DNA from: a virus
IMG/VR virus record: IMGVR_UViG_3300006735_000089
Location: 1 to 36,363 of that record
DNA: 36,363 bases
Direction: 5' to 3' (one strand)
In this document: positions 12,438 through 33,431 of the stretch, one piece after another
How the letters are laid out: every line of letters begins with the position of its first letter
How positions within the stretch are numbered: position 1 is the stretch's first letter
Made by a program: the position numbers and the translations under genes
Notes under the pieces: model-generated
Told to the model about the DNA's origin: nothing
The model's input: only the letters and a program-made list of their open reading frames with translations
Databases searched by the model: none

Positions 12438-14273
12438 ATGCCAGAGTTAAAACAAGGTTTTGGTTCTTCTAAAATGAACAAAGATTTAGACGAAAGAATC
12501 ATACCAAATGGAGAATATAGAGACGCTTTAAACGTTCAAATTTCTACAACAGATGATAAAGCTGCTGGGACGTTACAAACTATTAAAGGTAACTTAGATA
12601 AAACTTTTAACAACACGTTTACAGATCAACTTGGTGTTAACGCTCAAATAGTTGGTTCTATAGCTGATGAAAAAAACAACAAAATATATTATTTAGTTTA
12701 CGACCCTAGCAATTATTCCGATTATATTTTAGAATATGATTTAGCTATACAAAATGCAAGAGTTGTAGTTGCAGATAAATATCTGGTAAGAAAAACAATA
12801 GCGTCTACAGTTGGTAATCAAGCCGGTCAACCAGCTACTCACCTTGTTATTAGCGACGAAGGCGATACTACAAACATTACAAACGTAAGGCCAGGCATGC
12901 AGATACAAGGTGTTTTTTCAAATATACCAATAAGCTTTTCAGATGGATTATTTGTTCAGTACATGGAAAAAGACACGAATACTTGGAAGGTATACATGGA
13001 TAGTAATTCTTCTTCAAACAGTTTATTTACGGGTGGTTACTCCACTAACGTAGGTCAAGATGTTGTATTTAAATCAGAAAGAACTTTAAATTTTACTACT
13101 TCAAAAATAACTGGTTTGAATATTCTAGATAATCATTTGTTTTATGTGGATGGAAACAAAGAACCTAAAAGAATAAATATTAAAGACATAAAAGAAGGAA
13201 CAGATCCAGGTGGTGCTTATCACTCTACAATACCAGTTAAAAAAGAAGACGGTACAGTTATAACTTATCAAGGTGTTAATAGAATAGACTTCAGAGTTCA
13301 ACCACCTTATTTATCTGAAGAATATATCACTGTAATAAAAAAATCACCTTTATACCCACCGACATTAATACTTAGCAACACATCAGATGGTAGAATAAAA
13401 AGTGACGGAACATTATCTTCTTTACGTAGTCAAGTTTCAACAGTGTTTATTGATCACAATGATGAAACTCTTTCACCTGGAACTATTAAAGAAATTACTT
13501 TTACAGGTACAATACCCGATTATTTACCTGGTGACTTAGTGATATTAAGAAGATTTGAAGATTTTATCGATGGAGATCTTGATAATTATGAGGTTATTAT
13601 AGAAATTATAGAGTACAACACTGGTGCCGCTAAAGTAAAAATAAACTGGATAAATGAAAACCCAAGTGATGGAGCTTTAAACGTTCTTTCAAGCGCTGGA
13701 AATCCAATTCCAGTTTTATTTTATTCTATGTTAAAACAAGAAAAACCTTTGTATGAGTTTAAATTTCCAAGGTTTGCTTATAGATATAAATATGTTAACA
13801 ACCAATATTCAGCTTATTCTCCCTTTTCAGAACCAGCTTTTTTACCAGGTGATTTTAATTATGTGCCTAAAGAAGGCTATAATACAGGTATGGTAAACAC
13901 ATTAAGAAGTTTGTATATAATGGATTTTATTGAAGATTTAGATTCTTTACCTAAAAATATTTTAGAAGTAGATATATTATATAAGGAATCTAACTCTAAT
14001 AATATATACACCGTTAAAAATATTAAGGTAACTGATGACGAATGGGACGCGTACGGATCTCCTTCTACTGTTTCTTCTTTGCCAGCCGGAGCTTATCAAT
14101 ATGCTAGAACCAAAGGGGCTATAAGAATAACATCAGAAATGGTTAGAGCTGCTGTTGCTTCTAATCAATTACTAAGACCATGGGATAATGTTCCTAGAAA
14201 CGCTAAGGCACAAGAAATTGTAGGCAATAGAATTGTCTATGCTAATTATTTACAAAATTACAACTTAATATAA
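12438..14273 (+). CDS. Tail stabilisation/muzzle protein, N-terminal part
   Basis: A 611-aa protein that begins MPELKQGFGSSKMNKDLDER and continues IPNGEYRDALNVQISTTD, then GTLQTIKGN. The 'mNkDlDeR.vpnGeYrdalNvqvs.s...g.vqnikGn' opening is a hallmark of phage stabilisation/muzzle proteins of crAss-like and related marine podoviruses. Near the C-terminus LLRPWDNVPRNAKAQEIVGN and RIVYANYLQNY are also typical, but in homologues as I know them the protein continues into a block that here begins the next ORF. The stop is TAATATG, with the next gene in the +1 frame. The beta-rich middle (KSERTLNFTTSKITGLNILD, NHLFYVDGNKEPKRINI) is propeller-like. The split is discussed as a finding. Confidence 0.78.
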   Translation: MPELKQGFGSSKMNKDLDERIIPNGEYRDALNVQISTTDDKAAGTLQTIKGNLDKTFNNTFTDQLGVNAQIVGSIADEKNNKIYYLVYDPSNYSDYILEYDLAIQNARVVVADKYLVRKTIASTVGNQAGQPATHLVISDEGDTTNITNVRPGMQIQGVFSNIPISFSDGLFVQYMEKDTNTWKVYMDSNSSSNSLFTGGYSTNVGQDVVFKSERTLNFTTSKITGLNILDNHLFYVDGNKEPKRINIKDIKEGTDPGGAYHSTIPVKKEDGTVITYQGVNRIDFRVQPPYLSEEYITVIKKSPLYPPTLILSNTSDGRIKSDGTLSSLRSQVSTVFIDHNDETLSPGTIKEITFTGTIPDYLPGDLVILRRFEDFIDGDLDNYEVIIEIIEYNTGAAKVKINWINENPSDGALNVLSSAGNPIPVLFYSMLKQEKPLYEFKFPRFAYRYKYVNNQYSAYSPFSEPAFLPGDFNYVPKEGYNTGMVNTLRSLYIMDFIEDLDSLPKNILEVDILYKESNSNNIYTVKNIKVTDDEWDAYGSPSTVSSLPAGAYQYARTKGAIRITSEMVRAAVASNQLLRPWDNVPRNAKAQEIVGNRIVYANYLQNYNLI

Positions 14274-14274
14274 T

Positions 14275-17200
14275 ATGGCAACATCTTCAACTTCATCTCC
14301 GGTATTATCATTAGCTACTAAAATAAAAATAGTAGCCAACACACAATCTGAAAGTAAGAGTGGAATTACTGGCGAAAAATCTTTAAAATCATTAAGAAAT
14401 TATGAGGTAGGGGTTGTTTACAGAGATAAGTATGGTAGAGAAACACCTGTTTTTACTTCAACAAATTCTTCTTTTACAATTCCTAAAAAATTAAGTGACC
14501 ACAAAAATTCTATTGTAGCTAACTTACAAAACATAACGCCTAGCTGGGTTCATTCATATAAATACTTTATTAAAGAAACTTCAAATGAGTATTACAATGT
14601 TTGTATGGACAAATGGTATGACGCTGAAGATGGAAATATTTGGTTGTCATTTCCATCAGCTGAAAGAAATAAAATACAAGAAGATACATTTTTAATATTA
14701 AAAAAGAAAGCCGGTAATCAAGATGCTATTTATGAAGATGTAAAATATAAAGTTATAGATATAAGTAATGAAGCTCCTGATTATATAAAAACTGATTATG
14801 AGTTATACGGAACAGAGGCCGATGTAGCCGTGTCAACTGCAACACCTGGTTCGGATAAAATAACTATAGCTTGGAGTAGTACCGCAGGTGATACAGACTG
14901 GACTGAAACAGTATTTTATGATAGTTTACTAGACAATGATGGTGGGGCGACTAGTAGTACTACTGGTTTTATAGGTTGGCCACTTGAAAACGTTGTATTG
15001 GATATATCTACAACTAGTGGTAGAACAGGTTGGTTAGACGTTGCTAATATGTATAAAGATACAAATTTAATAATTAACTTATCAAAACCATTAATAGGGG
15101 CTTCTTCAACTACTAACACTGATGCTTCGGGTACTATAACTTCTATTTTACCGACTGGAGCTGGAACGCCAACTATAAAGTTAGCTAGAAAAGTAGTAAA
15201 GAATAAATCAGAGTTTAATGGTAGGTTTTTTGTAAAAATAAAAAGAGATATTTCTATAGATGATAATATTAGAAGTGTGGCAAACCCTTCTCCTAGTATA
15301 AATATTCAACAAACTATACAGCAGTATTATTTAAATACTACCCAATCAAATTCAGACGATGCTTTTTGGAGCTCAGTTGGCGAAAGATGGCTCATTGACG
15401 GCGCTAGTAGAGGGCAAGTTGGTACGGGTGGTGGAACAGGTTTAAGTGGTCCATATCCAGAAGATGATGGTTATGGAATTATTGGAGATGACATAACAAG
15501 CGGTAGAGGTGCTAATAGCGCTAAAAAGAGTTTAGAATGCACCATGGAGCTAACTCTGCAAAAAATTAAAGACACAAACAAAAATGGTTATGACGTTTCT
15601 AATAACAAGCAGGCTAATCAAGATTTTTTAACCAAGATATCTAATAGCAATACTAAGTTTAGATGGAAAGAAGATCCTCTTCAACATATATACAGAATAT
15701 CGTCTGTCACTAGTTCGGCTAGTGGTAACACTAATGGTGTTGGTATATTAAACTACGGTTCAAAAAACTCACAAAGAAAAGAAAAAAATAACAAGTGTAT
15801 TAGATTATATATAAAATTTAAAACAACTGGATGGAGGTTAAATGACACGCAAGACAACAGTGGTACTTATGAGTTTTTTCCAGAAGAAGAGGGTTTGTAT
15901 CCATTTAACTACCAAAATCAATACACACCAACTGTTGGTTCTTACACTAGCTGGGACCCAACTAAATATGGTTATGGTGACTATGATAATATTAGCTCAG
16001 CTTACACGCCTAGTTACACAGCTAACCATGCAAGTACTGCGTTACACTCCTTAGGGCAAAATGCTACTTTCACAGAATCAGTAGCGTCTGGGCTTATGAG
16101 GTCTAACACTTTAGAAATAGTTGATTTTTCTACTGGAGATGAAGAGCCTGTGTTTACAGAAAATCCAGCAGTATGGGAAACAGAGCCAAAAGAAGATAAA
16201 GGAATAGATATTTATTACGAGGCTAGTCAAGCTTATCCTACTTTTTTAGATAACAAAACAAATGAATTATTTGCGCCTTACGGATCTATAGTTACATGCT
16301 CTGATGTTGTAGGAGATCAAGGTTTGTATCTTCCTGAAAATACTGTTTTATACGATTGGGGTCCAACTGGACACGGTGGTAACACGTTATTGTTAAACAT
16401 TAAAACTGATGAAATAGGTATAATAGATAATACTAGCGCTGTGTCATCAACTAACCCAGTTTTAGGTGATAGCGCATCAACGCCTGGAGGTAGCGCCCCT
16501 ACAGCTTCCGTCTTTCATAATTTAAACTTAGATTTTATAGGCACTGAATTAAAATTTACAAGACACGATGGAAGTTATACAACCGCAAGGATAAATTATT
16601 TTTCAGGATGGAGCACAAGTAATAATTTTCAAGATGGAACAGCTCCGTTTTACGTTGGTAGCAGTAGTGATTTTGTTTTGTTAAAACTAGATAGAAATAT
16701 AACAAACACAAAAGTTAAATTACCTTATTTTAATTGTTATACGTTTGGCAATGGAGTTGAATCAGATAGAATTAGAGATGATTTTAATGCAGTTAGATTA
16801 GATAAAGGTGTGAGAGTGTCAACTGTTTTAGAAACACCTTATAAAGAAGAGTATAGAACGAATGGCTTAATATATTCTGGTATTTATAACTCTAATAGTG
16901 GTGTTAACAATTTAAATCAATTTATAGCCGCGGAAAAAATAACTAAAGATGTAAATCCTGTTTATGGTAGTATACAAAAGCTAAAAACAAGGGATACCAA
17001 TTTAGTTGCTTTTTGTGAAGATAAAGTTTTAAAAATAATAGCTAATAAAGATGCTTTATACAACGCTGATGGCAATCCTCAATTAACCGCTTCTAACGCC
17101 GTGTTGGGTAACGTAACTACTTTTGCTGGAGAGTTTGGTATATCTACAAATCCAGAATCTTATGCGGAGGAGTCTTTTAGAATGTATTTTACAGACAAAC

Positions 17201-18114
17201 AAAGAGGTAAAGTGTTAAGACTATCTGGAGATGGAATAACACCTATATCTGAGGTCGGTATGAGTGATTACTTTAAAAATAATTTAAAAAACAATAGTGT
17301 ATTATTAGGTAGTTTTGACGATAGAAAGTCAGAATATAATTTAACGTTAGTAAACAGTAATAAAACTATTTCTTTTAGTGAAAATGCTAAAGGTTGGGTT
17401 AGTTTTAAATCTTTTATACCTGAAAACGGTGTTAGTATAAATAGTAATTATTATACATTTAAAAACGGTAGGATATGGTTGCATCATAACAACAGTGTAC
17501 ATAATAATTTTTATGGAGATCAGTATGATTCTTATCTAGACATAGTATTTAACGCTGAATCAGACATTGTTAAAAGTTTTGGATCTATGAAGTATGAAGG
17601 TTCTCAAGCTAAAATAACTCAATTTTTAACTCAATCTGTTGTAGATTCTGCTGGTAACACCCTTGTTGTTGATGATGGTGAGTATTATAATTTACAAGAA
17701 AAGAAAGGTTGGTATGTAGAAAGTGGCGAAACTGATTTACAAGAATCCAGCGAGATGGAATTTAAAGAAAAAGAAGGTAAATGGTTTTCAGTTATGAAAG
17801 GTAAATCAACTAGAACTATTAACGATTTAAATAGCTCTGAGTTTAACTTTCAAGGTATAGAAGTGTTGAGCTCTATAAGATCATCAGGACAAACAGATAC
17901 AGCTTCTACCACTACCACTACCACAACAACGACTTCTACAGCTACTACTACAACCGCAAGTAATCCACCTCCACCATCACCGTCACCAGTGCCTGGTTGT
18001 ACAGATGTAAACGCTACAAATTATAATCCAAACGCTGACATTGATGACGGAAGTTGTGTATACACGCCGGTTACTTTCAACATAACAGTACAAGACCTTG
18101 GAGACACAGATTAA
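14275..18114 (+). CDS. Tail stabilisation/muzzle protein, C-terminal part, ending in a Cys-repeat module
   Basis: A 1279-aa protein continuing the muzzle theme. ITGEKSLKSLRNYEVGVVYR followed by DKYGRETPVFTS (about residues 35-65) is the block that normally follows the end of the previous ORF. NQFIAAEKITKDVNPVYGSI, then KLKTRDTNLVAFCEDKVLKI, FGISTNPESYA and RMYFTDKQRGKVLRLSGDGI belong to the C-terminal propeller-like part. The far end has SMKYEGSQAKI and EFKEKEGKWFSVMKGK, then a Thr/Ser linker from residue 1212, PPPPSPSPVP, and a single C-x18-C unit with Cys 1242 and 1261 (GCTDVNATNYNPNADIDDGS). The last unit matches repeats in the secreted protein at 34643 onward. A role as the tail nozzle/muzzle with an exposed C-terminal adhesion module is inferred. 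Confidence 0.75.
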   Translation: MATSSTSSPVLSLATKIKIVANTQSESKSGITGEKSLKSLRNYEVGVVYRDKYGRETPVFTSTNSSFTIPKKLSDHKNSIVANLQNITPSWVHSYKYFIKETSNEYYNVCMDKWYDAEDGNIWLSFPSAERNKIQEDTFLILKKKAGNQDAIYEDVKYKVIDISNEAPDYIKTDYELYGTEADVAVSTATPGSDKITIAWSSTAGDTDWTETVFYDSLLDNDGGATSSTTGFIGWPLENVVLDISTTSGRTGWLDVANMYKDTNLIINLSKPLIGASSTTNTDASGTITSILPTGAGTPTIKLARKVVKNKSEFNGRFFVKIKRDISIDDNIRSVANPSPSINIQQTIQQYYLNTTQSNSDDAFWSSVGERWLIDGASRGQVGTGGGTGLSGPYPEDDGYGIIGDDITSGRGANSAKKSLECTMELTLQKIKDTNKNGYDVSNNKQANQDFLTKISNSNTKFRWKEDPLQHIYRISSVTSSASGNTNGVGILNYGSKNSQRKEKNNKCIRLYIKFKTTGWRLNDTQDNSGTYEFFPEEEGLYPFNYQNQYTPTVGSYTSWDPTKYGYGDYDNISSAYTPSYTANHASTALHSLGQNATFTESVASGLMRSNTLEIVDFSTGDEEPVFTENPAVWETEPKEDKGIDIYYEASQAYPTFLDNKTNELFAPYGSIVTCSDVVGDQGLYLPENTVLYDWGPTGHGGNTLLLNIKTDEIGIIDNTSAVSSTNPVLGDSASTPGGSAPTASVFHNLNLDFIGTELKFTRHDGSYTTARINYFSGWSTSNNFQDGTAPFYVGSSSDFVLLKLDRNITNTKVKLPYFNCYTFGNGVESDRIRDDFNAVRLDKGVRVSTVLETPYKEEYRTNGLIYSGIYNSNSGVNNLNQFIAAEKITKDVNPVYGSIQKLKTRDTNLVAFCEDKVLKIIANKDALYNADGNPQLTASNAVLGNVTTFAGEFGISTNPESYAEESFRMYFTDKQRGKVLRLSGDGITPISEVGMSDYFKNNLKNNSVLLGSFDDRKSEYNLTLVNSNKTISFSENAKGWVSFKSFIPENGVSINSNYYTFKNGRIWLHHNNSVHNNFYGDQYDSYLDIVFNAESDIVKSFGSMKYEGSQAKITQFLTQSVVDSAGNTLVVDDGEYYNLQEKKGWYVESGETDLQESSEMEFKEKEGKWFSVMKGKSTRTINDLNSSEFNFQGIEVLSSIRSSGQTDTASTTTTTTTTTSTATTTTASNPPPPSPSPVPGCTDVNATNYNPNADIDDGSCVYTPVTFNITVQDLGDTD
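17908..17990 (+). repeat. ACN triplet tract encoding a Thr-rich linker, followed by Pro-rich codons
   Basis: The run of ACC/ACT/ACA/ACG codons from 17908 to about 17955 encodes a nearly pure Thr stretch and is followed by CCA/CCT/TCA codons for PPPPSPSPVP. It links the muzzle body to the C-x18-C module. The codons are synonymously varied rather than a perfect triplet repeat, which points to selection on the amino acids rather than recent slippage. Confidence 0.8.
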
Positions 18115-23015: not shown

Positions 23016-26000
23016 ATGAGTGATTTAACGACTGTATTAAAAGACTACGTACAAACAGCTAACAATCCTGAATACGGAGGTGATTGGAATATTATTAACA
23101 GTAAATTTCCGGAGTTAGCCAACTTTGATAAACAAGTCTTAAAAGATTATGTTTCTACTGCTAACAATTTTTATTATGGTGGTAATTGGAATATAATTAA
23201 TGGTAAGTTTCCAGAGTTATTTAAACCTCAAAATACTTCAACTAAAATTAACAATTCTGTTAATAAAAAATCAAAAACAACACCAATAAACACAGATCAA
23301 ACATATAGTTATGAAGATTTATATGGAGATGGTTGGGAAACAACTATTGACGAAATAAACAAAAAAGGCCCTAAGGGAGATTTAAAACCTTGGGAGAATA
23401 GACATAAAAGCGAAAACGGGTACGATAAAAGATATTGGAATGAAGATGGTAGTTTAAAAACTGCTGACCAAATGCATGATTATAAAAACAATGAAGACGG
23501 CAGTGGGTTTGGGTTTATCAACTTCAAGAAAATAGAAGAAGAAAACAAAGAAAAAAGAAAGAAACAAGAAGTAAAAGAGGAGTTTGAAAATAAAATCATT
23601 ACCGACGAAGGGGTTGTTGATGAAAAGGAAGATGTTGAGGAAAAGAAATACGATGGTGGTTATATAATATCAGACGAAGAAGAGGCTAAAATACTAAATA
23701 TACAAGACGGCTCGCTTAATCAAAACGCTGAAAAAAGTAGTACATACGCTTACAATAGACAAAAAGAAAACGAGTTGTACGGCTGGAGCGTTGGTGATTA
23801 TAAAGAGTCAGAAAACGTTGTTTCTAATCAAAAAAAATATAAAGAATACAAATACGGAAACGTAATTAAAAGAGTAGAGTACTCTTTAGGTTCTGGAAAA
23901 TATAATAATACTTGGAAAGAAACAGGTAATGTAGATTATAGATATGTTACTGATGACGGTGTTGAAAGAGCGGCTACAGACGAAGAAAAACAAAGTTGGA
24001 TAAATAGAGATTATGTTACTAAAACACATAAAAAAATTCAAAATAAAATATCGTCAGAAAGTTTAAATGAAGATAATTTAAAGTTATTGTATAAAAACCC
24101 AGAGGAATACCTTAAAAATCCTTACTACCATGCTGGTTCTCCTGACGTTGACGTATCAGAACTTAGTGAGCAAGATTTTCTAACGCAAGGCCAAGACATA
24201 GAAGCGGAGGGTGTAGATAAAGAATATGTTATAGAGCAAAAAGATATTGGTAACAAAATTTTTAAGTTTAGGCAAAAAGAAGGTGAGCAAGTTAATATAG
24301 TATATGAAGATTACAAAGGTAAATATAGACTTGGTACAGACGAAGAAGGTAATACAGCTAAGGTTTATTTAGACTGGGAAAACGATACGCCTGCACAAAT
24401 AAGATTAGAGTGGAATCTTTACAGTAAAATAAAGCTAAACCATATTAACAATGAATTAGCTAAAAAATTAATAAAAGAAGGTAAGGAACCTACTGTAGAA
24501 AATTTAATGGAAGAGTTCAAAAAATCTGAATTTTATAATGAAAAGCTTGAAAAGGCTAGAGAACAATGGACAACGGAGTATAAGTACCAGGATCAACAAC
24601 AATATTTAGATTTTAACCAAACAACTTTTCAAAAAGAATTTGAAATAGTAAATGAAGATATACTAGAGAATACTAATAAGTATTTTCAAGAGCAAACAGA
24701 ATCTATTAAAAATGAAATAACAGAAGATTTAACTGTAGAGTTAACAAGTTTATTTGAGCGAGATCAGAGCGGTGACATAGTTGTTTTACAGGATTTAAAT
24801 TGGAATAGTTATAAAGCTGGTGACAATATATCTAAAAAAGATTTAAATAAATATTTTCAATTTAGATTTGAAAACGCATTTTCTAAAAACGAAAATGTAA
24901 AAGACATAAGAAGAGAAACAGAGCAATTATATGAAAATACAGTAAAAAACTTTCAAGAAAAATATAAACCTAGTTATAATTTAATAGGTAACGAACGTTT
25001 AAACAGTATTGGTAATGCCTTTGTATCTACATTAAAAAGATTAGGACACACAGAAGAAAATGCAAAATTATCTGGAACAGAACAGTTAGGTATAATAAAT
25101 TCTATGTGGAAGAAGTTTGAGAAAAAGTTAACTGAAGAGTACAGAGACTCAGATCAAGATGAGTATGGATTGGCAGATTTTCTAGATCAAAGAAAACACG
25201 AGTTTTATACTTACATGTACGACAAGTCTGGTTTAGGTCTTTCGCACAATAAAGACGGTAGCATGTCCGACTATCAAAGACAGTTGATTTTATCTACCAT
25301 ATCGGATAATAACGAGGAGATAATGGAAAAAATATTGCTAGCTGGGTCTGAAGGTGATAATATTTTTGACGCTGGAGATTATACGGGCACTGTGTTTATG
25401 ACCTATGAAGATGGTAGCTCAGAAAACGTAGAGGGTTATTTTGACGCTGGAAAAGTTTATGATGGTGCCGATAGAGTTTTTGAAACTGCTGAAAAAATAA
25501 TAAAACAAGAGCAGTTAGAAGAAGGAGATGTAGATAGTTTTTGGGAGGGTTTTAAATCTAAACCAGCGCATGAATATTTTCCAATACTTGGTAACTTTGG
25601 TGATATAGCTAATAAAAGACAGTTGTTAGAAATTACTGATAAATTAAATAGAGATGGCTGGGAAAGTTTGTCAGATCAAGAAAAAGATATTTTAGTACTG
25701 TATAATATAAAAGCTGACTCAGATCAAAAAATAAAAGATATGTCTAGCTGGACTTATGGCGCGGGTAGATTAACTTCTGACATGATACCTTACGTTGGTG
25801 AGTTTATTTTAACGAGTGGCGCCTTTACGTTAGCTAGAGCATCCGCTTTAAAGGGACTCACCAAGGCTGTTGTCGGATCAGGTTTTTCTGTAGCAAAATC
25901 TCCAGCTACTAAAAACGCTGTTAAATTCGCATCTTGGTTAACTGGTACGTTAGCTCATACTTCTGCTAATCCAAACCATTATATATCTAAGATGTATGAC

Positions 26001-29000
26001 AACATGACTCCAGAAATGCAGTTGATGATGAGTGACGAGGGTGACGAGTTGATTGCCGCTATAACTGAAGAAGGTGATGATGTATTAAAAGCTTTCGCAA
26101 AAGCATACGGTACAACGTGGGCAGAATTTGCTACTGAAAGAATGGGTGAAGCTGTTCCTTTGTTTGGTAAGTATTTAAAAGGAAAATTACCAGATGGTGG
26201 TAAGCAGTTTTTAGAAAGACTTGTTGTGAGTAGATATATTAAAAAAGCTATGGATAAAATGGGTCTTAGCTTTAACGAAGCAGCAGAGCACTTTTTAAAA
26301 AGAACAAAAGACGGTATAGGTTGGAACGGGTTTATGGGTGAGGTTTTTGAAGAAGTTGTAAACCAACCAATATCAAACTTAATAGACGGTAATGATATAT
26401 TTGAAGGTATGGATGATAGGTTCTTTGGCGAGCTATCTATATCTATGGGTACTACCTCTCTAGCCTTTGGTGGTATTGGTATGTTAGCGTCTAAAAGAAA
26501 TAAAAAGAAAGCTGGATACTCAATCACTGAAAATGGTACAACTTTAAATTACAAAACATCTAAAGAGTTTAATGCTGCTTTGAATAAACTAGAAGAGCAA
26601 GGTAAGTTAAACAATGAAAATTATACTATTGAAATAGATATAAATAATGATGTTAATACATTTACAACTACTGAAAATTTATTAAATAAATACAAAGATA
26701 GAAATAACAAAGTTAACAACGTTAAAAAAGATTTCTTTGATTTAGGTTTAGCATCAGAAGTTGAACTTACAGAAGAAGTTGCTCAAGACCAAAATGACTA
26801 CGGTAACTTAACGACCATAGAAGAACAATTAGAAGAAGCGCACCAAGAAAGACAAGATATATTAAGTAGTGATATGTCTGGTAAGGACAAAAATAAAGCT
26901 TTAAGAAACAATCAAAAGAAACTTAAAAACTTAGAACAATCAAAGATGGACATAATAAGTCCATATTTAGAAAGAGTAGAAAAAAAGAAAAGATTTAAGG
27001 CTTACAAAAAGATAACTGAAAATGTAAAAGATCTTAACGAAAAAATGAAGTTTGACACCCAGATAATAGAGAAGTCAACTGGCGAAGGAACTAAAAGAGC
27101 TATATTAGAAGATATAAAAAGACAAATTGAAGAAAACCAAGTAATTATAGATACTCATTCAGACAAGAGAACTCAAGACTATAAAGACCTAGTAAAAAGA
27201 CAACAGGAATTAAAAAGCGATTTAAATGGAGAAGATGTTATGGGTATAAATCCTGAAACTGGCAAACCTTCAAAAAATCCAGAACATGGTTATATACCAA
27301 GCTTTAAATCTCAATTAAACGAAAATCCACATGGTTTTATTAGTAAAGATGGTAAAAATATTTTTATAAATAAATCTAGTGCATTAGCTAAAAATGGAGG
27401 AAATATAAATGTTGCCGCTCACGAGTTTTTACATAGAGCTTTAAAAACTATGGTTGAAAATAATCCTCATACGCAGCTAGCTCTAGGTAGTGCTTTACAT
27501 AAATATGTTATGGCATTAGATCCTAAGGGATACGCTGGAGACTTTAATCGTAGATTACAAGCCTATCAAGATAATAGCACTAACTCTGAAATGGGTAGAA
27601 TTGAACAGGCTTGGATGATGCTACAACAAAACATAGACCCAACAACAGGTAAGCCATTAACAGCTTCTCAAATTAAAAATAAAGAAGTTGAAATGAAAAA
27701 ATTATCTGATAGATATGTTGAGCTTCAAAACTCTTATAATAATGTAATGGCTGAAGAGGCTTTAACTTTACTGTCTGATGCTTTTGCTATGGGTAATTTG
27801 AATTTAAGTAATGGTAGATTAAATGTATTAGGTAAAATATTTGAAAGATTATTAGGTGCTATTGGTGTTAGAGCTAAGTTTTCAACAGGTGAAGATGTTT
27901 ATAACTTTGTAGCTGATTTTTCAGATAGTATACAAAAAGGTGAAGTTAGTAGAAGATTAAGAAAACAATTATCTCAAAGAGCTGAATTAAAAGGACAGTT
28001 AAAAGAAGATAAAACAACACTACAAAAAAGAAAAATAAAACGTTATCAAAACGTACAGTTTTCTAAAGCTGTAAATAAAGATCAAAACGAATTAGGTAGA
28101 GCTGCTAATACTCCAGCTATAATAAAGAGAAATGAAAAATTACAGCAAGATATATTAGATGCGTACGAAAGAGGTGAAACTAAAAGAGATGGTAACGGTA
28201 AAATAATAGTACCTCAAGATATTCAAGATCAATTAGTAGAAAACAATTTACCAAGAGTTACATCTTTAGCAGCACAAGCAGCTAACGTTGGAAAAAATAT
28301 AGAGTTAGAACAAGACAAGAAAAAATTATTTGATGACTTTTTTCCTGAGTATTATATAAAATTAGCTGACTTAGCTAGAACTTACAATGCAGAAAAGGTA
28401 CCGTTCGGTGCTTACATGAACACTTTACTTCCTTTAAAATACTCTGGTATATTAGAAGATTTAAAGAGAGGAGAAATTGAAGCCACGTCTGGGTTAGAAA
28501 AAGCCGCTACGGTAGCCGCTGAAAATGAAAATATAGAAAAAGCTGGGAAATTAATTAAGTTATATAAAAAGTTTGGTAAGTACGCTGAAGCGTATAACTT
28601 AAAAGTTAAAGAAGCTATTAAAGATGGTAAGTTTGATCCAGCAAAAGAAAACATAGGTAGAATAGGTGTTAATACTGTTGATATGTTTCCTAGTATGACA
28701 CAAACTATGTTTGGTGTAATACCTAAGCCAGGCAACCTTACTAAAGGAGATCTTCTTGAGTCTCAAATGTTTGTGAATAAACATATTGAAACTATTAGAT
28801 TAATGCTTCCTCAAACGTCTCATATAGTTGAAAAAATAAATGAAAAAACAGGTAAGCCTTCAATAATAAAATCTATTGGTATACCTAGAAAAGTATTAAA
28901 AAAGTTTTATAATAAAGGTCCTCGTGTCGGTAACGACTATATGTGGATGTTAAAAACTGATATATCTAATAAAGATATACTTGATTTTGCTGGTGTAACA

Positions 29001-32000
29001 GAAAGAGGTAAGCCTAATCTATATAAAAAAGATACTAACACTAGTCAAAACCACAAAGCTATACATGATTTAACTGGAAGAATGATGACTAACCAAGCCG
29101 CTAGAGAATACTTTGTAGAAAACAATATGCCTCTAGAAAACATGGGTACGTTACAAGATTCTATGTCTCAAAATATGTTTAGTAAGACTGTTAATGAAGC
29201 ACCTGTAGGTGATAGAGCTTTATTTTTTGCTGGGCTACCTAAGTTAGGTGAAAATTACAGAAAGCATGGTAACAGTATGAGAAAAGCTTTTAACATGACT
29301 TACGGAAAAGATTTGTTTGGTGATAAGAGAGGAGATGTTATAGAAGATTTAGAGACGTACATAGAGACTTACGAGCAATACGTAGTCGAATCTACTCTTG
29401 CTGGAGAACAAATGTTGACTTTAGAAAACTATATCAACGAGCAAACAATGTCTTTAACTTTTGAAGAAAATTTAAGAAAGATTATAAGGTTACCTAAGGA
29501 TCAGCTTAATTTTAAAGATAAAGATCAAATAGAAAGCACTAGAAAAGCAGTGTCAACTCTTTTAACAGAGAGCAATATAACACCTAACGAAGCAAAAAGG
29601 TTTTTAAGTTTCATGTATAATACTGGTAATATAGGAGGGACAACTTTAATTAAAAATGAAAAAGGAGAACTAGTATATAACGAGCAGCATTGGCAGCAAA
29701 AAATATTAGAAGCTACAGAAAAATTAGAAGTAGCTAAAGCTCAAAAAGACAAAAAGAAAATATCAAAACTTGAAGATAAAATATCTGGTTATGAAAAGAA
29801 AATAGAAGAAGGTGTAACTACTTTAGATAGCCACATATACGGTTTGTTTAAAAACGCTGAAGATTTTAATACGTTTGTTTTAGAAGGAGTAGAAGAAACT
29901 GGTGGGGTTATAGCTCCAAATACAAAACAAGATGTTACTGTTAAGCTAAAAACACAAAAAGATATACAGGCTCAAGAAGATTCTTCTATGAGAAACAAAA
30001 TGTTTTTACGAAAACTTAGTAGTGAGTTAGGAAGGTTAATGAACGAGGGTAAAATAAATAGAAATGATGTTGGTATGATAATGTTGTCGATAGGTAATGC
30101 TGGCATGAACACACCTATAGCCGCTGCTGCTCCAGTACTATACACCACTACTAATCCAACTAAAGAAAGTCATAGATACGAGCATTTAATACCTAGAAAA
30201 ATTATTACTTTATACTTTGCTAACTCTGTGTTAGATGGGAGCGCACAAAGCCAGTTAGAGTTTAATAATATATTAGATCAATTTGGTGTAGCTATAATCC
30301 CTAAAGAACAAGACAAGTTAATAAATGACGTAGGTTATCAATCCGCTATGCCTAATACTTGGATGATAGGCATGGACCCACTAATGAGATATTTTAACCT
30401 AAGAACATTTGGAAAAATAAATTTAGATTTAATAGACGTAAAGACTGGCAAGCCAATAACTAAATATCAAAACTTTAAAAAGGTACACGAGGTACTTGGA
30501 GAAAACCACGACAAAGTAGTTATGTATAATAAAGCTATATTAGCTTCACGTGTAGTTGCTCCATCAAGAGGTATGAGTACTTTTGATTTTGACGAAACAT
30601 TAATAGACAAAGGTGAAAACTTTATTATAGCTATAGACCCTAAAACAGGAGATAGAGTAAAAATATCTTCAGGTAACTGGCCTTTAGAGGGGCCTAATTT
30701 TGCCGCTCAAGGATATGAGTTTGATTTTACAGACTTTGTTAACGTAAGAGGAGGTGTTAAAGGTCCTTTATTTAAAAAGCTTCAAAATCAATTAAAAAAA
30801 TATGGATCTGAAAATGTGTATGTATTAACAGCTAGACCAGCGGAAAGCGCGCCAGCTATATATGAATGGTTAAAATCTAACAACGTTGAGATACCATTAG
30901 AAAATATTACGGGACTAGGTAATAGTACTGGAGAAGCTAAAGCAGAATGGATGCTTGGAAAATTCGCAGAAGGGTATAATGACATGTACTTTGTTGATGA
31001 CGCTCTGCCTAATGTTAAAGCTGTTAAAGATGTTTTAGATCAATTAGATATCAAATCAAGCGTTCAACAAGCTAGACATAACTTTAGTAAAAACTCTAAA
31101 AGAGAGTTTAGTGAGATAATGGAAAACGCTTCTTTAGATTTAAACAGAATATTAGAACAAACAAAAGGTATAAAAGCAGAAGCTAGATTTTCAGCTGCTC
31201 AAGCAAAAATTAGAGGAGGTAAAATAGGTAGATATAAATTCTTTTTACCACCATCAGCGCAAGACTTCAAAGGTTTGTTATATTACTTTGTGGGCAAAGG
31301 TAGAGTTGGAGAAAGACAAATGGCTTTCTTTGACAAAGCTTTAATAGCTCCTTTTGCAAAAGCTATAAGTGAAATTAATTCGTTTAAACAAAACTTAAAT
31401 AATAAATACAAGACAGCGTTAAAAGAGTTTAATGTTAAAGGTTTGTTAAAAGAAAAAGTTGGTGACACAAACTTTACAACTGAACAAGCTGTAAGAGTTT
31501 ATTTGTGGAACAAAGGTGGTTTTGATGTTCCAGGTTTATCTAAAAGAGATTTAAACACATTGATAAGTTTTGTAGAAAGTAATGAAAACTTAGTGGGGTT
31601 TGCTGAAACAATAGGTAGAGCTACAGAACAAGAGGCTGGTTACGTAGAACCGTCTGAATACTGGACAGTAGAGTCTATACTAAGTGACTTGCATGGTCTA
31701 GCTAACGAGATGAAAAGATCGGACTTTTTAGCTGAATGGAAACAAAATGTAGATAATATTTTTTCTGCAGATAATATGAATAAAATTCAAGCCCTATACG
31801 GTAGTAGATTTAAAGAAGCTTTAGAGGACATGTTGTACGCTATGGAATTTGGTACTAGCAAAGAGGGTCGTGGTAGTAGAATTGTAAATGCGTTTAACAA
31901 TTGGGCTAATCAATCTGTTGGTGCTATTATGTTCTTTAATATGAGATCTGCGTTACTTCAAACTATATCTGCAATTAACTTTATAAACTGGTCTGACAAC

Positions 32001-33431
32001 AACCCTTTGAAAGCTGCTATAGCATTTGGTAACCAACCACAGTTTTGGAAAGACTTTGCTATGATATTTAATTCTGACATGCTTAAACAAAGACGTGGTG
32101 GGCAACAACGTGGAGTTAACGAAACAGAGCTTGCGAATGCTGTTGCTGGTAGTAAAAACAAAGCTAAAGCTGCTTTGAGCTGGTTGTTAGAAAAAGGATT
32201 TTTACCTACCCAAATCGCCGATAGTTTTGCTATTGCTTCGGGTGGAGCTTCTTTTTATAGAAACAGATTTAATAGTTATATAAAACAAGGTTATTCTAAA
32301 GAGCAGGCACACGATATGGCTTTCCAAGATTTTCAAGAAAACGCAGAGGCTAGTCAACAGTCTGCAAGGCCAGACATGATTTCACAACAACAAAGAAGTC
32401 CACTTGGTAGATATATACTTGCGTTTAAAAACACGCCAATGCAGTACGCTAGATTGATACAAAAATCTTATAAAGATTTAATCAACCGTAGAGGTGATAC
32501 TAAAACAAATATAAGTAAAATACTATACTATGGCGTAGTGCAAAATTTATTATTTACAGCTCTTCAGTCAGCATTAGGATCAATGATAGGCGACGATGAC
32601 GAAGATGACGCTTTTGATTGGGAAAGAGTTACTAACAGCATGCTAGACAACTACTTGGGTGGTCTTGGTTTAGGTGGCCAAGCGACAGTTACTTTAAAAA
32701 ATACAGTACAAGAATTTTTAAAACAAGAAGAAAAGGAATGGAATTCTGATCACGCTTACACTTTGTTAAGGTTGTTTGGATTGTCCCCAACTATAGGCTC
32801 TAAGGGTAGAAAAATATATTCAGCTATACAAACGAATAGGTTTAATAAAGAAATCATGCAAGAGATGAGTTTGTTGAATGTTGACAACCCTGCTTACTCT
32901 ATATTTGGTAATATTGTATCTGCTTTATTTAACGTTCCTTTAGATAGACTTGTTAAAAAAGTAGATAATATAGATGTTGCTATAACACAAGATATAAGCA
33001 ACTGGCAAAGAATGGCTTTAATGATGGGTTGGAGTACTTGGGATTTAGGTATTAAAGATCAAGATATATTAGAAATAAAGGAAGACATAAAAGAAAGAAA
33101 AAAACTAGAGAATAAAGAAAAGCAAAAAAAGAAGAAAAAAGAAAAAGAAAAAGAAAAAGAAAAAGAAAACCTACAACTAGAGAAACAAAATTTTGAACTA
33201 CAAGATAAAGAAAAAGACAAAGGTGATAAAGTTTTATGTGCTGCTATTAGCAAGAAAGGCAACAGATGTAAACGGGAAGTTCTTGAGGGGAAAAGATACT
33301 GTACAGTACATGAAAAAGTAGAAAAAAATAAAACTGGAGAAAAAGTACAGTGTAAAAAAATAAAGTCTGACGGTGATAGATGTAAGATGAAAACTAGTAA
33401 CACAAGCGGTTTATGTTACTATCATGATTAA
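23016..33431 (+). CDS. Giant multi-domain virion (polyvalent/cargo) protein
   Basis: A 3471-aa protein, over a quarter of the window, with no stop interruption. Domains in order: two LKDYV.TANN..YGG.WNIIN.KFPEL repeats at 8-34 and 42-68; a long acidic/helical N-terminal third; hydrophobic stretches around 930-960 and 1139-1158; HEFLH at 1469-1473 (zincin metallopeptidase motif) with EE at 1580-1581 as candidate third ligands; a sigma-70-region-2-like stretch at about 1704-1835; FDFDETL at 2523-2529, LTARP near 2605 and VDD at 2660-2662 (HAD-like phosphatase); an LPD38-like block (IMFFNMRSALLQTISAINFI) at about 2950-3230; a Lys/Glu-rich coiled coil; and two C-x9-C-x10-C-x2-H modules at 3408-3432 and 3446-3470. 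Domain mixing like this matches large polyvalent phage proteins ejected into the host with the genome. Individual activities are predicted, not shown. Confidence 0.78.
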   Translation: MSDLTTVLKDYVQTANNPEYGGDWNIINSKFPELANFDKQVLKDYVSTANNFYYGGNWNIINGKFPELFKPQNTSTKINNSVNKKSKTTPINTDQTYSYEDLYGDGWETTIDEINKKGPKGDLKPWENRHKSENGYDKRYWNEDGSLKTADQMHDYKNNEDGSGFGFINFKKIEEENKEKRKKQEVKEEFENKIITDEGVVDEKEDVEEKKYDGGYIISDEEEAKILNIQDGSLNQNAEKSSTYAYNRQKENELYGWSVGDYKESENVVSNQKKYKEYKYGNVIKRVEYSLGSGKYNNTWKETGNVDYRYVTDDGVERAATDEEKQSWINRDYVTKTHKKIQNKISSESLNEDNLKLLYKNPEEYLKNPYYHAGSPDVDVSELSEQDFLTQGQDIEAEGVDKEYVIEQKDIGNKIFKFRQKEGEQVNIVYEDYKGKYRLGTDEEGNTAKVYLDWENDTPAQIRLEWNLYSKIKLNHINNELAKKLIKEGKEPTVENLMEEFKKSEFYNEKLEKAREQWTTEYKYQDQQQYLDFNQTTFQKEFEIVNEDILENTNKYFQEQTESIKNEITEDLTVELTSLFERDQSGDIVVLQDLNWNSYKAGDNISKKDLNKYFQFRFENAFSKNENVKDIRRETEQLYENTVKNFQEKYKPSYNLIGNERLNSIGNAFVSTLKRLGHTEENAKLSGTEQLGIINSMWKKFEKKLTEEYRDSDQDEYGLADFLDQRKHEFYTYMYDKSGLGLSHNKDGSMSDYQRQLILSTISDNNEEIMEKILLAGSEGDNIFDAGDYTGTVFMTYEDGSSENVEGYFDAGKVYDGADRVFETAEKIIKQEQLEEGDVDSFWEGFKSKPAHEYFPILGNFGDIANKRQLLEITDKLNRDGWESLSDQEKDILVLYNIKADSDQKIKDMSSWTYGAGRLTSDMIPYVGEFILTSGAFTLARASALKGLTKAVVGSGFSVAKSPATKNAVKFASWLTGTLAHTSANPNHYISKMYDNMTPEMQLMMSDEGDELIAAITEEGDDVLKAFAKAYGTTWAEFATERMGEAVPLFGKYLKGKLPDGGKQFLERLVVSRYIKKAMDKMGLSFNEAAEHFLKRTKDGIGWNGFMGEVFEEVVNQPISNLIDGNDIFEGMDDRFFGELSISMGTTSLAFGGIGMLASKRNKKKAGYSITENGTTLNYKTSKEFNAALNKLEEQGKLNNENYTIEIDINNDVNTFTTTENLLNKYKDRNNKVNNVKKDFFDLGLASEVELTEEVAQDQNDYGNLTTIEEQLEEAHQERQDILSSDMSGKDKNKALRNNQKKLKNLEQSKMDIISPYLERVEKKKRFKAYKKITENVKDLNEKMKFDTQIIEKSTGEGTKRAILEDIKRQIEENQVIIDTHSDKRTQDYKDLVKRQQELKSDLNGEDVMGINPETGKPSKNPEHGYIPSFKSQLNENPHGFISKDGKNIFINKSSALAKNGGNINVAAHEFLHRALKTMVENNPHTQLALGSALHKYVMALDPKGYAGDFNRRLQAYQDNSTNSEMGRIEQAWMMLQQNIDPTTGKPLTASQIKNKEVEMKKLSDRYVELQNSYNNVMAEEALTLLSDAFAMGNLNLSNGRLNVLGKIFERLLGAIGVRAKFSTGEDVYNFVADFSDSIQKGEVSRRLRKQLSQRAELKGQLKEDKTTLQKRKIKRYQNVQFSKAVNKDQNELGRAANTPAIIKRNEKLQQDILDAYERGETKRDGNGKIIVPQDIQDQLVENNLPRVTSLAAQAANVGKNIELEQDKKKLFDDFFPEYYIKLADLARTYNAEKVPFGAYMNTLLPLKYSGILEDLKRGEIEATSGLEKAATVAAENENIEKAGKLIKLYKKFGKYAEAYNLKVKEAIKDGKFDPAKENIGRIGVNTVDMFPSMTQTMFGVIPKPGNLTKGDLLESQMFVNKHIETIRLMLPQTSHIVEKINEKTGKPSIIKSIGIPRKVLKKFYNKGPRVGNDYMWMLKTDISNKDILDFAGVTERGKPNLYKKDTNTSQNHKAIHDLTGRMMTNQAAREYFVENNMPLENMGTLQDSMSQNMFSKTVNEAPVGDRALFFAGLPKLGENYRKHGNSMRKAFNMTYGKDLFGDKRGDVIEDLETYIETYEQYVVESTLAGEQMLTLENYINEQTMSLTFEENLRKIIRLPKDQLNFKDKDQIESTRKAVSTLLTESNITPNEAKRFLSFMYNTGNIGGTTLIKNEKGELVYNEQHWQQKILEATEKLEVAKAQKDKKKISKLEDKISGYEKKIEEGVTTLDSHIYGLFKNAEDFNTFVLEGVEETGGVIAPNTKQDVTVKLKTQKDIQAQEDSSMRNKMFLRKLSSELGRLMNEGKINRNDVGMIMLSIGNAGMNTPIAAAAPVLYTTTNPTKESHRYEHLIPRKIITLYFANSVLDGSAQSQLEFNNILDQFGVAIIPKEQDKLINDVGYQSAMPNTWMIGMDPLMRYFNLRTFGKINLDLIDVKTGKPITKYQNFKKVHEVLGENHDKVVMYNKAILASRVVAPSRGMSTFDFDETLIDKGENFIIAIDPKTGDRVKISSGNWPLEGPNFAAQGYEFDFTDFVNVRGGVKGPLFKKLQNQLKKYGSENVYVLTARPAESAPAIYEWLKSNNVEIPLENITGLGNSTGEAKAEWMLGKFAEGYNDMYFVDDALPNVKAVKDVLDQLDIKSSVQQARHNFSKNSKREFSEIMENASLDLNRILEQTKGIKAEARFSAAQAKIRGGKIGRYKFFLPPSAQDFKGLLYYFVGKGRVGERQMAFFDKALIAPFAKAISEINSFKQNLNNKYKTALKEFNVKGLLKEKVGDTNFTTEQAVRVYLWNKGGFDVPGLSKRDLNTLISFVESNENLVGFAETIGRATEQEAGYVEPSEYWTVESILSDLHGLANEMKRSDFLAEWKQNVDNIFSADNMNKIQALYGSRFKEALEDMLYAMEFGTSKEGRGSRIVNAFNNWANQSVGAIMFFNMRSALLQTISAINFINWSDNNPLKAAIAFGNQPQFWKDFAMIFNSDMLKQRRGGQQRGVNETELANAVAGSKNKAKAALSWLLEKGFLPTQIADSFAIASGGASFYRNRFNSYIKQGYSKEQAHDMAFQDFQENAEASQQSARPDMISQQQRSPLGRYILAFKNTPMQYARLIQKSYKDLINRRGDTKTNISKILYYGVVQNLLFTALQSALGSMIGDDDEDDAFDWERVTNSMLDNYLGGLGLGGQATVTLKNTVQEFLKQEEKEWNSDHAYTLLRLFGLSPTIGSKGRKIYSAIQTNRFNKEIMQEMSLLNVDNPAYSIFGNIVSALFNVPLDRLVKKVDNIDVAITQDISNWQRMALMMGWSTWDLGIKDQDILEIKEDIKERKKLENKEKQKKKKKEKEKEKEKENLQLEKQNFELQDKEKDKGDKVLCAAISKKGNRCKREVLEGKRYCTVHEKVEKNKTGEKVQCKKIKSDGDRCKMKTSNTSGLCYYHD
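23037..23219 (+). repeat. Two-copy protein repeat at the N-terminus of the giant protein
   Basis: Residues 8-34 and 42-68 share the pattern LKDYV.TANN..YGG.WNIIN.KFPEL, 27 residues each, with a 7-residue spacer. The underlying DNA has diverged, so the repeat is old and kept at the protein level. It could be a virion-docking or packaging tag; this is inferred from its terminal position only. Confidence 0.85.
33141..33169 (+). repeat. GAAAAA hexamer tract encoding a Lys-Glu coiled-coil stretch
   Basis: About five near-perfect GAAAAA units lie inside the giant gene and encode alternating Lys-Glu, just ahead of the C-terminal zinc modules. Since the unit is six bases long, slippage would change length without shifting frame, so linker length may vary between relatives. 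Confidence 0.8.

Follow-up and report, generated by a model that had tools for sequence, protein, structure and literature searches.

The phage and its giant gene

The window, that is, the whole stretch of DNA analysed here, is a 36,363-base virus record whose genes include those for a GroES-like protein, a terminase, a portal protein and virion proteins. Its gene content groups the phage with podovirus-like Bacteroidota phages. The terminase shares 64% identity with the MW202828 terminase and 32-47% identity with terminases of Flavobacterium, Cellulophaga and Tenacibaculum phages. Two adjacent ORFs of 611 and 1,279 aa (12438-18114) both match phrog_14478 and, in relatives such as MW202828, match one large CDS, which points to a split gene or a frameshift. 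According to the ORF listing and gene order, the virion module ends with its largest gene, an ORF of 3,471 aa on the plus strand (23016-33431), referred to here as the giant; all features within it are given on this strand.

The giant is multidomain. A zincin-like metallopeptidase region that is common to relatives carries the motif HEFLH (residues 1469-1473; 27420-27434), and a profile of this region was found in 62 ORFs. Downstream of the motif lies a sigma region 2-like domain (residues 1733-1835; 28212-28520), delimited by profile register, family homology and the predicted fold of the relative L105. Within it, alignment of the window to sigma profiles with hhalign places the counterpart of region 2.1 (LVENNLPRVTSLAAQAAN) at 28233-28286 and, together with the family alignment A7 described below, the counterpart of regions 2.2-2.3 at residues 1773-1802 (28332-28421). 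A sequence-only reading of this DNA had proposed a sigma-70 region 2-like stretch at 28128-28520, fused within a larger protein; the peptides on which it relied are all in frame and exact, and they do lie inside the single 3,471-aa ORF. On the 3' side of the domain, BLAST of relatives reveals a conserved block with no match to sigma region 3 or 4 (residues 1895-2060; 28698-29195), and BLAST together with a scan delimits the conserved C-terminal part that defines the family (residues 2350-3471; 30063-33428). A HAD-like block containing FDFDETLI (30573-31085), also downstream of the domain, weakly matches the phage polynucleotide kinase family phrog_415 (E 0.0046).

Relatives of the C-terminal block are encoded by 270 stretches of the viral collection, the best 80 of which were used; other queries contributed 12 and 80 loci, with some contigs recurring among them. 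A second contig (L087, from 9986) encodes residues 1-1390 of the window giant at 100% identity and is probably the same virus from another sample. The sole relative found in bacterial genome contigs, L102, is located in a Sphingobacteriales MAG, consistent either with a host among the Bacteroidota or with a phage contig drawn in by binning. No cultured or named phage in the phage collection searched was found to carry the domain.

Sequence similarity to sigma region 2

In the window itself, residues 1740-1819 align with sigma regions 2.1-2.3. The profile used for the window alone consisted of two sequences, the window and its 73%-identical relative L001. With hhalign, residues 1740-1801 of this profile aligned to columns 1-53 of a six-sequence primary-sigma profile (P 0.023), spanning from LVENN in region 2.1 through the Y of FGAYM in region 2.3. 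LVENNLPRV falls at the beginning of region 2.1, FFPEYY opposite LIQEGN, and YNAEK-VPFGAYM opposite FEYRRGYKFSTYA; this register is identical to the one that had been proposed from the pattern of residues, and the order of sigma-like peptides is thus borne out. A 29-sequence sigma profile gave P 0.012, and neither of two further sigma profiles was informative (P 0.067 and 0.37). When the whole giant was divided into 22 overlapping tiles, both the six- and the 29-sequence profiles peaked at the sigma-like stretch. Searches of PHROGs, and of the PDB with phmmer, using the window domain returned no sigma factor. Taken alone, then, the window sequence is suggestive, having the right pattern and order while falling short of proof. 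A Pfam scan of the window protein yields no Sigma70_r2 (PF04542) match; the significance is supplied by the relatives.

One subfamily of the sigma2-like domain is encoded by 83 stretches of the viral collection. A subfamily that includes sequences such as LLTDEIETGQRGIFDLIREYKPESGVPLAAYINKFLP is far more sigma-like than the window. The window matches the profile of this subfamily over residues 1782-1899 (hhalign, Prob 95.1, E 3e-8), and by BLAST its residues 825-2059 match L034 with 28% identity (E 2e-90). The column corresponding to Y430 of sigma holds Y, F or W in 53 of 54 non-redundant middle regions, a count that depends on the alignment. A probability of 90 against the subfamily profile was reached by 23 of these 54 members, several of which are already inside that profile, and the remaining members were placed solely through their MAFFT position and motif. 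Alignment A7 comprises 70 rows, namely 57 non-redundant sequences of the 96 subfamily members and 13 of 24 others, the other 11 appearing too different for a good alignment.

A deep alignment of the family, with the window included, matched three sigma profiles with P values of 2.6e-5 to 3.9e-5 (Prob 70-75). Against the same three profiles, reversed controls and 300 shuffles each all scored below 21.7, compared to real scores of 29.9 to 36.9; when columns were shuffled in blocks of four, 1 of 200 shuffles came near the real score (23.2 vs 25.2). Comparison to a sigma profile dominated by ECF factors failed (Prob 0.9). Among 70 members, NCBIfam models for SigI (11 members), SigK (5), FliA/WhiG (4) and ECF factors (3) were matched, with a best E-value of 1.7e-4, and in L049 the Sigma70_r2, FliA/WhiG and ECF matches share one stretch. 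The best PF04542 scores inside giants were 20.5 bits in the record of L049 (17.3 for its slice) and 12.7 bits in that of L042, and the curated cut-off of 24 bits was not attained wherever giants were scored. Searched against PDB sequences, the family profile ranked a SET2 domain at the top (E 0.46), followed by a sigma factor (E 0.65) that aligned in the register expected; a second profile, A4, which covers the entire 540-aa middle region, retrieved no sigma factor among its 4 matches. With small sigma HMMs run on 54 giants, the best site fell in the domain for 7 of 30, 3 of 32 and 1 of 27 of the giants that had a site at all, where 0.4, 0.5 and 0.3 would be expected and reversed HMMs gave 0 of 31 and 0 of 32, an excess that is small. 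An ECF-heavy sigma HMM run on all ORFs gave top scores at noise level, and among the matches listed none lay in the domain. ClpS models also matched 7 and 3 of the 70 members; in L105 these matches are at slice residues 129-173, outside the domain, and ClpS was set aside as a candidate.

Profile similarity to sigma region 2 in the correct register, as anticipated by the sequence-only reading, is therefore found for the family (P about 3e-5), while the window's own profile remains weak (P 0.012-0.023).

Predicted fold and retained residues

An AlphaFold2 model of the relative L105, built from 70 aligned rows that include the window, has a pLDDT of 86.5 and exceeds 90 over residues 21-110 when taken in blocks of ten. 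When this model was compared to the PDB with Foldseek, 47 of the 50 listed matches, including the first 32, were sigma factors or initiation complexes by title, with modest E-values (best 0.033). VIA-align of residues 17-116 gave sigma factors or initiation complexes in all 50 listed matches, the best of which (2.7 A over 90 residues, 9% identity) has a Z of 9.6, a middling value that is often obtained with helical models. Among viral models, the top two matches were proteins of uncultured viruses, and phage sigma factors made up most of the named matches that followed. The helical sigma2 fold is found in the L105 model and not in that of the window alone, which was built from two sequences and is unusable (pLDDT 39).

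Sequence and structure searches thus map the same part of the protein onto sigma region 2, with the fold being a predicted one. For the family, a sigma2 fold and remote homology to sigma region 2 can be proposed with high confidence on these predictions, and for the window both are very likely. The stretch first recognized from its residue pattern is accordingly upheld by the fold of a relative and by the family profile, and the unrelated fold that would have spoken against it did not appear; the window contributes a weak profile of its own and no Pfam match.

Residues were numbered as in sigma70, transferred through rpoD, and counted over the 70 rows of A7. In sigma70, D403, Q406 and E407 of region 2.2 bind core polymerase. 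Of these, D403 remains D in 50 of the 70 rows, Q406 is mostly E and E407 is mostly T. Positions 419, R423, Y425, T429, 430 and W433 recognise the -10 element. An aromatic residue is present at position 419 in 69 of 70 rows and at position 430 in all 70; apart from these two, the recognition residues are mostly lost, most rows differing at R423, Y425, T429 and W433. W433 is mostly K, and position 434, a W in sigma70, is occupied by F or Y in 48 of 70 rows. The window keeps D403, E407, F427 and Y430, and has Y at 419, P at 406, T at 433 and L at 434; its nearest relative L001 has Q at position 403. The caution originally attached to the residues that contact the -10 element was thus justified, and the extent of these changes makes classical -10 recognition by the domain unlikely. 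Binding of core polymerase is possible, as judged from the core-binding residues that are partly kept. No sigma region 4 (PF04545) was found in the giants of 16 records searched, and the part that follows the domain gave no support for region 3 or 4 (P 0.3 and 0.54), the domain's tail compared to full sigma giving P 0.3.

In its predicted fold, helix order and aromatic residues at 419 and 430, the domain resembles sigma-70 region 2 (PF04542). It differs in being buried in a giant protein, in scoring below the cut-off, in having most -10 residues changed and in lacking a region 4.

Probable virion location and possible roles at entry

The order of genes around the giant matches that of phi18:3, phi38:1 and the elemo phages. 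In phi18:3, both the positional counterpart of the giant (gp123) and the earlier gp120, a homologue (E 3e-7) of a 228-aa ORF in the window, are marked as detected by MS/MS. Since gp123 and the giant have no detectable sequence similarity, we infer a virion location from gene order. By this analogy the giant is probably carried in the phage particle and delivered with the DNA. Its 3,471 aa, multidomain make-up and HEFLH zincin-like motif are also traits of phage polyvalent proteins, which are very large, multidomain and endowed with a zincin-type HEXXH motif, likely to be processed by the zincin, and proposed to jump-start transcription (Iyer et al., 2017, PMC5512222); the word "sigma" is absent from the main text of that paper. 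An LPD14 match in the window protein (E 3.7e-4) lies below the LPD14 cut-off.

Free sigma factors are also present in these phages. By Pfam, 16 of 50 related virus records encode one of 243-266 aa, and the window's nearest relative also has one, at 68% identity. These free factors (L209-L221) include a sigma region 2 and occur in phages that also encode a giant; unlike the giant, they are about 250 aa long and have regions 2 and 4. PF04545 was found in 10 of 16 records, always in a separate ORF, 243-262 aa long. Examples of the free sigma70-family factors are G042:C1:2181-2408 and G002:C1:60309-61061, and a tblastn search of the named phage collection with L209-L221 found no match at E 1e-3. 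The possibility that the domain originated by recent duplication of the phage's free sigma was considered; with P 0.036 against the free sigma and 8e-4 against cellular sigma, the domain is no closer to the former, and such a duplication is not evident. An Rpb1-type polymerase was not found in any of 16 records, with search controls positive in 14 of 14 genomes; a search for a T7-type polymerase (PF00940) likewise gave no match, and its controls were silent as well, making that search uninformative.

The reading that best accommodates these observations makes the giant a polyvalent protein that is injected and whose sigma2-derived module docks on the host's RNA polymerase, a proposal that may equally well be right or wrong. 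The giant would travel in the virion and pass into the cell along with the DNA, its central portion being a remote homologue of sigma70 region 2 with the predicted fold of that region. After entry, the module could be released through cleavage by the neighbouring zincin-like peptidase and would dock at the usual sigma region 2 site of the polymerase. There it may either capture the polymerase for the incoming genome or take it from the host sigma factor, acting before phage genes are expressed and before the phage's own full-length sigma factor is made. This docking module draws on the L105 fold, the family profile scores, the homology of window and family, the retention of D403 and of aromatic residues at 419 and 430, the gene order and the existence of a free sigma. 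Against it stand the missing Pfam match for the window, the modest Foldseek E-values, a model that belongs to a relative, the loss of most -10 residues, Q403 in L001, the absence of region 4 from the giants, and the dissimilarity of the giant to the MS/MS-detected protein of phi18:3. The broader proposal that a large group of uncultured Bacteroidota phages inject a sigma2 module in a giant virion protein, and thereby take the host polymerase at entry, is tentative and must be considered doubtful.

An alternative possibility is that the domain acts as a decoy, binding the beta-prime clamp helices only to exclude host sigma and shut down host transcription, with no promoter recognition at all. 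The sigma2 fold, the loss of most -10 residues and the lack of region 4 in the giants would suit such a role, but the core-binding residues are kept only in part, and it is judged unlikely. It is also rather improbable that the fold was exapted for a different role with no contact to RNA polymerase, for instance gripping DNA, single-stranded or duplex, while it is being packaged or ejected. Such a function would fit a domain embedded in a virion-type giant in which both known sigma2 interfaces have changed residues, yet nearly every row retains the aromatic residues at 419 and 430, and 50 of 70 retain D403. That the domain is a helical bundle resembling sigma region 2 by chance is very improbable, for although the window has no significant single-sequence match, a SET2 domain heads the PDB sequence matches of the family profile and middling Z values are common for helical models, fold and register agree between sequence and structure searches, nearly all structural matches listed are sigma factors, and the profile scores exceed all 300 shuffles per sigma profile.

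The extent to which a phage sigma2 domain can diverge is illustrated by the promoter-specificity subunit gp226 of AR9, which is highly diverged and shares about 10% identity with a sigma factor (PMC9209446). Unlike the giant, gp226 is described there as part of a jumbo phage's non-virion RNA polymerase, which has a polymerase core of its own as well as a sigma finger. The crAss-like phages and N4 are described as delivering giant virion RNA polymerases that start phage transcription (PMC10172136, PMC7886860, PMC12633501); these virion proteins carry a polymerase, whereas only a sigma2-like module was found in the window giant. The literature searched, mostly the main texts of open papers and including PMC7824862, showed no sigma domain that is packaged in a virion or injected.

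Complete RNA polymerases are among the proteins that phages inject, as are enzymes modifying the polymerase of the host. If the docking module is real, a virion-borne sigma2 domain would be a third route to seizing transcription at entry and the sigma counterpart of the virion RNA polymerases. It would make testable how a phage with no detected polymerase of its own begins to read its genome, and would provide a candidate function for a conserved part of giants that are otherwise almost devoid of annotation. At the C-terminus of the window giant (33231-33428), two Cys/His-rich repeats resemble small zinc-binding units, the nearest model being DUF5763 at an E-value of only 0.65.
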